64,000 bases of DNA from an uncultured Lachnospiraceae bacterium. GTDB lineage: Bacteria; Bacillota; Clostridia; Lachnospirales; Lachnospiraceae. The notes below the pieces were generated by a model. It was given only the letters and a program-made list of their open reading frames with translations. It had not been told where the DNA came from and did not search any database. Numbering within the stretch: position 1 is the stretch's first letter; the number at the start of each line of letters is the position of its first letter. The DNA lies in assembly GCA_947382625.1 (NCBI GenBank), contig CANDAG010000001.1:186001-250000 (forward strand), read 5' to 3'. Below are positions 21,451 through 56,721 of this stretch, one piece after another. Both the position numbers and the translations under genes were made by a program.

Positions 21451-21486
21451 CGACCTACGCGTGCATCAGCACGCTTCATTATATCA
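21451..21486 (-). promoter_or_regulatory. dispersed promoter-hairpin cassette, copy 1
   Basis: Read on the minus strand: TGATATAAT (extended -10), then GAA, the hairpin GCGTGC-TGAT-GCACGC, then GTAGGTCG, directly followed by the AAGGAGG site of the phospholipase-like gene. A transcript starting about 7 bases after the -10 would carry the stem at its very 5' end. The same 36-bp block occurs at 50734-50769 with one stem pair changed from G-C to A-T on both sides. A short frame MKRADARVGRKEE also lies across it and stops 8 bases before the gene start. Confidence 0.7.
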
Positions 21487-34291: not shown

Positions 34292-34363
34292 CAAACGCCG
34301 CCCCGCTTCGCAAGATGGCTTATTGATCAAACACTGACACGCTTCGCGAGTCAGCTTATTGAT
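34292..34363. repeat. two tandem 36-bp hairpin repeats
   Basis: Units 34292-34327 and 34328-34363 each run from CAAAC to CTTATTGAT around CCGCTTCGCAAGATGG or ACGCTTCGCGAGTCAG. In unit 2 CTGACACGC pairs with GCGAGTCAG. A third copy lies at 56668-56703 after the queuosine transporter gene. All lie just past stop codons. Confidence 0.7.
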
Positions 34364-34364
34364 G

Positions 34365-34400
34365 AAAAACGGAACCTTCCGGGAGGAGGGTTCCGTTTTT
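34365..34400. terminator. bidirectional terminator between GH3 and ktrA
   Basis: AAAAACGGAACC and GGTTCCGTTTTT form a 12-bp stem with A and T runs on the two sides, between convergent genes. Confidence 0.9.
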
Positions 34401-49626: not shown

Positions 49627-49683
49627 AACTCCCTTTCGGGGTGGCAGGAAGTAAAACCTGTTCCCGGAAGGGAGTTGTTTTTT
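49627..49683. terminator. terminator between the ABC operon and carbamate kinase
   Basis: AACTCCCTTTCGGG pairs with CCCGGAAGGGAGTT (one bulge) around a 28-base loop, followed by GTTTTTT. Lies between convergent genes and touches the arcC stop. Confidence 0.85.
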
Positions 49684-50617
49684 ATGCGGTGATAACGGTT
49701 CCGGCCTTTCCCTTCAGGGCATCGGCAACGGATTCTAATGAGGTGATCAGTACGCTTCCCTCCGGATGGACGGAAAGATAGGTGATCGCCGCTTCTATTT
49801 TGGGAAGCATAGTCCCTTCCCCGAATTCACCCTCTGCAGCCATTTTTTTCGCTTCACTTAAGGTGAGGGCAGAAATGGCTCTCTGGTCTTCCTTTCCAAA
49901 GCTCTGATATACATTGGGGACAGAGGTCAGGATAATAAGCTGGCCGGCATTTAAGTCGGCAGCCAGTTTTCCGGCAATGGCATCCTTTTCGATTACGGCT
50001 GAAGCACCCTTTAAGGCGTGCTGCTGTTCAATGACGGGAATTCCGCCGCCGCCGCAGGCGATCACGATCTGCCCCGCCTCTGCCAGAGTGCGGATGGCTT
50101 CCAACTCCACGATTTCAATAGGCTTGGGAGCAGCGATAATGCGGCGGAAGCCCTTGCCGGGTTCCTCCTGTACATAATTGCCCTTCTTTATTTCTATTTC
50201 AGCATCATCTGCGGACATATGACGGCCGATCAGCTTGGTAGGTTCATAAAATGCCTCATCGTAAGGGTCTACAGTCACCTGGGTTAAAATGGTGGAGACA
50301 GTCTTGCTGATCCCCCGGCTTAAGAGTTCTGCCTTCAGGGAATTCTGGATATCATAGCCTACATACCCCTGGCTCATGGCGCTGCACACGCACATGGGAG
50401 CAGGGGTGTAATCAAGGTAAATACGACGCAGCTCTGTCATGGCCTTGTGTATCATGCTGATCTGGGGGCCATTGCTGTGGGTGATGGTGAGCTGACAGCC
50501 TGCCTCCACCAGATCCGCAAGGGCTCTGGCAGTTACCTTGACGGCGCTGCGCTGTTCCGTGGTGGTGTGGCCTAATGCGTTATGTCCTAATGAAACTACT
50601 GTTTTTTTCATAGTCAT
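49682..50617 (-). CDS. arcC: carbamate kinase
   Basis: 311 residues from ATG 50617, seven bases after AGGA. Transfers phosphate from carbamoyl phosphate to ADP, giving ATP, in arginine, agmatine or purine-derived pathways. Marks: VVSLGHNALGHTTTEQRSAV (the usual GGNA is GHNA here), THSNGPQISMI (substrate loop), RRIIAAPKPIEIVELEAI, IACGGGGIPVI, VIEKDAIAGKLAA and LTSVPNVYQSFG. The usual glycine of GGNA is replaced by His, which is uncommon. No arcA or arcB nearby, so the carbamoyl phosphate source is unknown. Confidence 0.92.
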   Translation of the reverse strand: MTMKKTVVSLGHNALGHTTTEQRSAVKVTARALADLVEAGCQLTITHSNGPQISMIHKAMTELRRIYLDYTPAPMCVCSAMSQGYVGYDIQNSLKAELLSRGISKTVSTILTQVTVDPYDEAFYEPTKLIGRHMSADDAEIEIKKGNYVQEEPGKGFRRIIAAPKPIEIVELEAIRTLAEAGQIVIACGGGGIPVIEQQHALKGASAVIEKDAIAGKLAADLNAGQLIILTSVPNVYQSFGKEDQRAISALTLSEAKKMAAEGEFGEGTMLPKIEAAITYLSVHPEGSVLITSLESVADALKGKAGTVITA

Positions 50618-50637: not shown

Positions 50638-50745
50638 TTAATCTTCTTTTATTGGCGGTTGCTGATAGAGCTTTCTGTTGATTTCCTTTTTGATGATTTC
50701 GATTTCAGCTTCGGCGGCTTCCTGCCCTCCACGCGACCTACGCAT
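50638..50745 (-). CDS. possible 35-residue peptide gene
   Basis: An ATG at 50745, inside the promoter-hairpin cassette, opens a frame whose last 28 residues (QEAAEAEIEIIKKEINRKLY then QQPPIKED) look like a real helical peptide. A different frame over the same DNA from ATG 50762 gives a Lys/Ser-rich 37-mer (MKHADACVGRVEGRKPP...) ending at 50649. GGAGGG at 50723-50728 on the minus strand has no start codon at the right distance. Either a small gene, a decayed gene end, or an arcC leader. It ends 20 bp before arcC. Confidence 0.3.
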   Translation of the reverse strand: MRRSRGGQEAAEAEIEIIKKEINRKLYQQPPIKED

Positions 50746-50769
50746 GCATCAGCATGCTTCATTATACCA
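50734..50769 (-). promoter_or_regulatory. dispersed promoter-hairpin cassette, copy 2
   Basis: On the minus strand: TGGTATAAT (extended -10), GAA, hairpin GCATGC-TGAT-GCATGC, then GTAGGTCG. It matches copy 1 at 21451-21486 except for the base after TG and for the stem pair, where G-C has become A-T on both arms. It lies 117 bp before arcC and probably drives it. Confidence 0.7.
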
Positions 50770-55983: not shown

Positions 55984-56670
55984 ATGACTAATTCAATTTT
56001 ATTTGTGGGATCTATTGTATTTTATTTATGTGCGGTGATCGCGGCCTATAAGTGGTTTGGAAAGACAGGGCTTTATGTTTTCACAGCCATTTCGGCAATC
56101 CTGGCCAATATACAGGTCTGCAAAAATGTGGACATGTTCGGGCTTTCTACCACTGCCGGAAATGTATTGTATGCGGCAAGCTTTCTGGTGACAGACATCC
56201 TGTCCGAAAAATACGGAAAAAAGGCCGCCAAAAAGGCGGTTTATGTGGGGATTTTCACAACGGTGATATTTTTAGTGGGAATGCAGGGGATGCTCTCCCT
56301 TACCCCCAACAGCAGTGATATCATGGATCCGGCCATGCAGCAGCTCTTCGGGCTGGTACCTCGGGTTGCCATAGCCAGTATTGTAGGTTATATGTGTTCC
56401 CAGACCATTGATGTAACACTGTATCATTTTATATGGAAAAAGACCGGTGATAATGAAAAGTGGCTCTGGACAAGGAACTGCGGGTCAACCCTTACCTCCC
56501 AGGCAGTGGATACGGTGGTCTTTACCTTTATTGCCTTCTGGGGGATTTATGAGACAGGAGTTTTTGTGAGTATTCTGCTCACCACTTATCTGTTCAAGGC
56601 TATCGTAGCCTTCTGCGACACTCCTTTTGTCTACCTGGCAAGGAAGCTTAAGGTGAAGGAAGAAAACTAA
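55984..56670 (+). CDS. queuosine precursor transporter (YhhQ/QPTR family)
   Basis: 228 residues, six hydrophobic segments. Family marks: FLVTDILSEKYGKKAAKKAV and SQTIDVTLYHFIWKKTGDNE, WLWTRNCGSTLTSQAVDTVV with FTFIAFWG, and a final TTYLFKAIVAFCDTPFVYLA. Members import preQ0 or preQ1. The gene lies between queC and queF, which supports the role. Salvage plus partial synthesis would explain the missing queD and queE here. Confidence 0.92.
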   Translation: MTNSILFVGSIVFYLCAVIAAYKWFGKTGLYVFTAISAILANIQVCKNVDMFGLSTTAGNVLYAASFLVTDILSEKYGKKAAKKAVYVGIFTTVIFLVGMQGMLSLTPNSSDIMDPAMQQLFGLVPRVAIASIVGYMCSQTIDVTLYHFIWKKTGDNEKWLWTRNCGSTLTSQAVDTVVFTFIAFWGIYETGVFVSILLTTYLFKAIVAFCDTPFVYLARKLKVKEEN

Positions 56671-56703
56671 ACGCTGCCACGCTTCGCGAGTCAGCTTATT
56701 TAT
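56668..56703. repeat. third copy of the 36-bp hairpin repeat
   Basis: TAAACGCTGCCACGCTTCGC followed by GAGTCAGCTTATTTAT, matching units 34292-34363 at most positions. It starts at the stop codon of the transporter gene and ends 18 bp before queF. Confidence 0.65.
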
Positions 56704-56721
56704 TAAGGAAGGGGAATCAAA

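Follow-up and report, generated by a model that had tools for sequence, protein, structure and literature searches.

Two short, closely matching blocks of hairpin-forming DNA lie on the minus strand of the window (the whole 64,000-nucleotide stretch of uncultured Lachnospiraceae DNA analysed here), each adjoining an extended -10 box and each upstream of a different gene. The question that they raise is whether promoter and hairpin form one dispersed cassette, as the original prediction had it, or whether the hairpin is a separate sequence that has come to lie behind a promoter. The blocks read TATAATGAAGCGTGCTGATGCACGCGTAGGTCG at 21451-21483 (preceded by TGA) and TATAATGAAGCATGCTGATGCATGCGTAGGTCG at 50734-50766 (preceded by TGG). 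A search with the block pattern, allowing up to 3 mismatches, gave two matches in the window; over 100 shuffles the mean number of matches was 0.00, so that none is expected by chance. Each block forms a stem of 6 bp with a TGAT loop and the stems differ at the third pair only, where G-C is replaced by A-T; the predicted compensatory change is thus real. A repeat finder (minimum length 30, seed 14) did not list the block in the window because the exact stretches common to both copies are shorter than its seed. The features are given in Table 1.

Table 1. Window copies of the element, adjoining boxes and downstream genes
Feature	Position	Strand	Remark
Truncated element, copy 1	21451..21477	-	GAA, H1 and GTAGGTCG; H2 absent
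H1 arms of copy 1	21469-21474 and 21459-21464	-	TGAT loop at 21465-21468
Extended -10 box TGATATAAT adjoining copy 1	21478..21486	-	
Gene downstream of copy 1, 236 aa	20722..21432	-	No Pfam or NCBIfam match
Truncated element, copy 2	50734..50760	-	GAA, H1 and GTAGGTCG; H2 absent
H1 arms of copy 2	50752-50757 and 50742-50747	-	TGAT loop at 50748-50751
Extended -10 box TGGTATAAT adjoining copy 2	50761..50769	-	
Carbamate kinase-like gene (arcC) downstream of copy 2	49682..50617	-	

The description of the gene downstream of copy 1 as phospholipase-like finds no support in these searches. The gene downstream of copy 2 is carbamate kinase-like: it matches PF00696 and its best NCBIfam model is arcC, with a score below the curated cut-off. 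In copy 1, GTCGTAAGGA runs directly into the ribosome-binding region TAAGGAGGAATAAA of its gene. The blocks were also said to contain an MKxADAxVGR reading frame that could give false N-termini. The frames MKRADARVGR and MKHADACVGR exist, but a stop precedes either window gene and no false N-terminus arises there. Elsewhere in the window, a 38-nt direct repeat occurs as two adjacent copies (34293-34330 and 34329-34366) with a third 22 kb away (56669-56706).

A two-hairpin element and its pairing

The window block is the H1 half of a larger element with two hairpins. A complete unit consists of H1 (GAAGCnnnCTGATGnnnGC), a linker resembling GYAGGTC and a second, larger hairpin, H2, of the form GTC...GAC, often followed by a second AT-rich box. 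Units occur singly or in tandem. The core of the element is about 40-70 nt and repeats in arrays are spaced by 56-79 bp (79 bp at several loci of the window's own genome, 56 bp upwards elsewhere). The original prediction was therefore right about the hairpin that it described, but took as the whole unit a block from which H2 is missing. We infer that both window copies are decayed and have lost H2.

In the assembly to which the window belongs (113 contigs, about 88% complete), H1 was found at 10 places with a long pattern (up to 3 mismatches) and at 29 places with a shorter one (up to 2 mismatches), and H2 at 24 places (up to 3 mismatches). A reversed control pattern gave zero matches in the same assembly. 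The search for further copies suggested at the outset thus succeeds, here and in scattered relatives, and the genome copies bear out a dispersed, hairpin-forming sequence next to extended -10 boxes. The GTAG or GCAG before H2 is imposed by the H1 search pattern; copies in this genome found through H2 also have other feet, such as TTGG, TGGG or ACAG.

In five composite arrays (L008, L014, L027, L028 and L033) the first H2 is followed by another (GGTCGTAAGG...) that has no H1 of its own, at a distance of about 122 bp where two are in register, which suggests that H2 can be added alone. A GC-rich stretch (GGGCGAAGCCCGYGAGCGAGGAAA...) lies upstream of the element at L015 of this genome and is shared with the flank of an element upstream of arcC in G019 (L143, about 1575-1750).

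Across 37 distinct H1 sequences, five of the six pairs are variable and for the most part remain paired. Each of the two middle pairs is standard in 33 of the 37, and both are broken (TC/TC) in the form GCTCGC/GCTCGC, which is common in one multi-genome lineage (G037, G038, G039, G043 and G044). Of 34 distinct sequences in the 23-24-nt class of H2, 33 have a standard pair 8 (A-T 13, G-C 10, C-G 9, T-A 1; broken 1), where shuffling gives 14.8, and only 20 have a standard pair 5. Pairing is high in the 33-nt and 44-nt classes of H2 and hardly above that of shuffles, because these stems vary little. These figures are to be read knowing that the search patterns fix some letters of H1 and close H2 with GTC/GAC. 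The T-G pairs in H2 speak for one strand over the other. Pairing is kept in H2 and, in most lineages, in H1. The compensatory change in the window is thus part of a general pattern of pairing. The hairpins are kept, and pairing does not tell RNA from DNA as the working form. In quasipalindromes, template switching can also restore stems.

The -10 box, its direction and the flanks

We counted the start of an array as boxed where TATAAT lies within 4 nt of GAAGC. Among 112 array starts, 39 have a forward box, 26 a reverse box and 47 neither; at control positions the rates are 0.35-0.38% (forward) and 0.86-0.94% (reverse), the positions near the elements giving 0.38% and 0.94%. The direction of the box predicts which neighbouring gene is read. 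For intergenic arrays with a forward box, the right-hand gene is on the plus strand in 33 of 36 (Fisher p = 6e-5). For reverse-box arrays, the left-hand gene is on the minus strand in 22 of the 24 that have a called gene, out of 25 (Fisher p = 1e-4). Where there is neither box, the right-hand gene is on the plus strand in 23 of 36 and the left-hand gene on the minus strand in 17 of 35. Neighbouring genes in these comparisons are crude ORF calls of at least 80 aa. In 5 of the 25 reverse-box rows (L038, one of L107, L097, L112 and L136) GAC stands just before the box, and these may follow a unit missed by the pattern rather than being first units. Chance matches (L059, L096, L110, L114 and L122) were left out of all such counts, as were L134, L138 and L151 from the flank test onwards and L118 from the box, direction and control counts.

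Scores for a -35 signal peak at the proper distance upstream of the distal box. In the forward class the score is 3.02 at the proper distance from it (n=41) and 2.22-2.90 at other shifts. The reverse class shows a weak peak (2.96, n=26; other shifts 2.27-2.88). The inner copy of the forward class scores 2.14 (n=21), with other shifts reaching 2.76.

Two genes allow the site to be compared with and without the element, the promoters being matched by pattern and by eye rather than by formal alignment. In G036 an element lies directly behind the promoter TATAAT of aroC. The aroC query matched in 36 of 37 genomes of the genus, and 30 loci were fetched. Eighteen of these (G036 included) share ACAATAG, a -35-like TTGnnn and TATAAT, TATACT or TAAAAT at 44 or 45 nt; the other 17 with this block carry no element there. 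The remaining 12 fetched loci have no recognisable promoter block. Similarly, an arcC-like gene of G019 has a full unit upstream, directly behind TGGTATAAT, and 18 of 19 fetched relatives have an element-free TGnTATACT. Because relatives keep the box element-free at aroC and arcC, and because it faces either way, TATAAT appears to belong to the target and not, as originally predicted, to the cassette. By analogy with these two genes, the box adjoining copy 1 in the window would also be promoter and target. For this copy six relatives were displayed and the alignment ends near the gene start; neither window copy has a second box or a comparable empty site.

An element-free counterpart of L064 in the genus of G037 was considered and rejected, the upstream homology being to another dispersed repeat. 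A repeat of about 170 bp, with the ends TATAATAAT...ATTATTATA, is present at L064 and L236-L241 (G037 and G039) and also ends at TATA-like boxes; at L064 and L239 the hairpin element lies directly at its end. At two further loci (L066, about 880-1010, and L099, about 1715-1850) the element stands between CCTTAGGAC and GTCCACTTAAG, which look like the two arms of a conserved leader. There was no Rfam match in this region at the gathering score.

Transcription is expected to start about 7 nt after TATAAT. In the window copies GAAGC abuts TATAAT, which places the expected start of the transcript within the first arm of H1. Where AAG separates the two, as in some other copies, the whole stem could be transcribed. 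A 5' stem that stabilises mRNA is not supported: in the window copies the expected start falls inside the stem, copies occur in coding sequence and others lie in reverse orientation behind promoters.

The two flanks of an array are more alike than shuffled flanks are. For the 68 arrays in genomes that have three or more, the best-run score is 6.34, against 5.67 +/- 0.14 in 300 within-genome shuffles, none of which was as high. The score is at least 9 in 24 of all 106 arrays (for example ATTATATCAC and TATGATATAAT). The duplication has no fixed length, with little or none in many arrays; when flanks were compared at fixed offsets, the signal of a target duplication was diffuse, at offsets 12-13. 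As a partial H1 comes after some right-hand boxes, truncated tandem units explain part of the flank signal, and such boxes may be the start of a further, truncated unit. With moderate confidence, we read the recurrence of the box at the other end as a putative target duplication of about 10 bp.

Distribution and copies inside proteins

The distribution of the element across Lachnospiraceae is patchy. A strict pattern finds it in 6 of the 397 family genomes sampled, the window's own among them, and within the genus 6 of 37 genomes match with up to 2 mismatches (own included, some by chance). BLAST also finds diverged copies in other genomes of the genus, such as G006 and G028. One exact-pattern scan of the GTDB species genomes returned 97 stretches, of which 80 were listed with titles; those titled are mostly Lachnospiraceae or unnamed Clostridia, and a few matches, such as those in Sphingomonas and three Bipolaricaulota, were set aside as chance. 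One of the named carriers, Eubacterium sp. MSJ-21, is not a MAG. Carriage by plasmids or phages was considered and rejected. The sole plasmid match is 25 bp in Azospirillum, taken as chance; there was no exact-pattern match in IMG/VR viral contigs and no BLAST match in phage records. A search of one library of open-access literature with limited terms found no description of this element.

For 8 of the 142 units tested, an ORF runs through the unit and extends 60 codons or more beyond it in both directions. One (L010) was discarded as its ORF is antisense past the gene end, and L145 was added separately, giving eight accepted cases. All eight predicted proteins are of the AAA-ATPase_like/PDDEXK_9 family (PF09820/PF08011) and all read the same frame of the element's minus strand (...DLR..QRAS or close variants). 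Four long ORFs match both domains (L029, 587 aa; L243, 595 aa; L046, 590 aa; L089, 584 aa), as does L105 (471 aa), in which the first domain is shorter. L088 (468 aa) matches the first domain only, and L271 (193 aa) and L145 (229 aa) the second only. There are three insertion sites: after RYD (four cases), at SIF-S/LNNL (three) and at GPYD/EIFYY (one). At the RYD site, which presumably holds the catalytic aspartate, 14 displayed homologues (not necessarily orthologues) lack the insert. The in-frame copies lie at sites resembling TAYGATATnATG, which suggests that the element may prefer a sequence rather than promoter activity as such.

A different effect on coding sequence is seen at aroC of G036 (L152), where the frame of the element runs into the gene: a partial second unit (TATAATGAAGCACGCTGATG) supplies an in-frame ATG 15 codons upstream of the likely start. 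This ATG is a probable false N-terminus for gene callers, and spurious starts of the MKxADAxVGR type are thus possible, as originally proposed.

A probable mobile repeat and its rivals

Taken together, these data make it probable that the element is a small, non-autonomous, palindromic mobile repeat of two hairpins that settles behind -10 boxes and favours targets resembling TGRTATAAT. We read it in this way because it is dispersed and patchy, -10 sites free of it exist, its pairing is kept in most lineages, its -10-like target is often repeated at the other end, and it occurs in arrays and in frame. Sites without it are found in relatives at aroC, at arcC and in PDDEXK_9 genes. A transposase acting in trans would cut TGRTATAAT-like DNA with a stagger of about 10 bp; the staggered cut would regenerate the -10 box, so that the host promoter would survive, and the element would end up in a 5' leader or, at other sites, encode a peptide in frame. 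More tentatively, the -10 box itself might be the target, perhaps through single-stranded DNA exposed in the open promoter complex. The element would then duplicate the -10, leaving the host gene its promoter in either orientation, and proteins of a nuclease-like family would tolerate it in frame, as a peptide module next to their predicted active site. We regard this fuller version as possible but doubtful.

In its working the element is like a MITE or a REP-type repeat and, where it lies in proteins, like the Rickettsia palindromic elements (RPEs), although we do not claim membership of any of these groups. REPs and REPINs are described as small GTAG-tagged palindromes that form arrays, are patchy and occasionally lie in ORFs (PMC3733652). 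The element here is also a small palindrome, in patchy arrays and sometimes in ORFs; the same paper places REPs mainly downstream of genes, whereas this element often lies between the -10 and the start codon, and it has no consistent association with Y1. Correia elements and other MITEs, according to the review PMC10969869, are short repeats that do not move on their own, lie upstream of genes, influence promoters and carry promoter sequences of their own. The present element is likewise small, non-autonomous and upstream of genes, but its -10 would be that of the target. It also differs from MITEs in that no terminal inverted repeats are apparent by eye; its ends (GAAGC... and ...GAC) are not inverted repeats. 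RPEs, according to that review, are short palindromic repeats of about 150 bp in Rickettsia, found in frame inside protein-coding genes and elsewhere (PMC10969869). The element resembles them in its predicted in-frame copies (eight ORFs of one protein family), and differs in its core length, its host family, its two hairpins and its -10-like target.

The resemblance to REPs raises the alternative that the element is a REP/REPIN-type repeat which a RAYT, a Y1 transposase like those of IS200/IS605, moves by way of single-stranded DNA. H2 has GYAG at its foot, similar to the GTAG tag of REPs (PMC3733652), a non-standard pair recurs in H2 (pair 5), and Y1 genes are present in 8 of 12 carriers. The Y1 transposase (PF01797) is absent from the other four carriers tested (G034, 94% complete; G036, 59% complete; G037; G042), and G037 has the most places of the nine carriers searched. 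As Y1 presence is inconsistent across carriers, we rejected it as the partner. In addition, copies with other feet, such as TTGG, TGGG or ACAG, occur in the window's own genome, and duplications are seen in the flanks; insertion of the IS200/IS605 type is not expected to leave such duplications. We consider this alternative unlikely.

Less likely still is the cassette originally proposed, an intrinsic TGnTATAAT promoter copied together with an mRNA-stabilising 5' hairpin. TATAAT adjoins GAAGC in many copies and the stems covary. At L141 and L157 (G034, contigs 15 and 66), moreover, two H1-only copies share 60 bp upstream and have different sequences downstream. This looks as though promoter and H1 had been copied as one piece, and in one case at least it speaks for a mobile promoter cassette. 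Set against this are the element-free -10 boxes at aroC and arcC, the reversed box that in several genomes predicts the other neighbouring gene, the copies inside genes and the expected start within the stem where TATAAT abuts GAAGC. A regulatory structured leader RNA, spread vertically and by duplication, is the least probable reading: two covarying hairpins and T-G pairs that favour one strand of H2 would suit it, but the element is patchy in the family, lies in both orientations and inside ORFs, and has no Rfam match in the window (at the gathering score) or at 18 carrier loci, where the four matches fall elsewhere.

The preferred reading, a mobile repeat that settles behind the -10 box, explains the false starts of the MKxADAxVGR type. 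It would describe an element that occupies DNA under tight constraint and leaves it functional, both behind the -10, of which it tends to leave a second copy, and in frame in proteins, and it would let one test whether transposition can home on promoter DNA. The scattered copies would provide natural experiments on how insertion into a leader changes expression in gut Lachnospiraceae.
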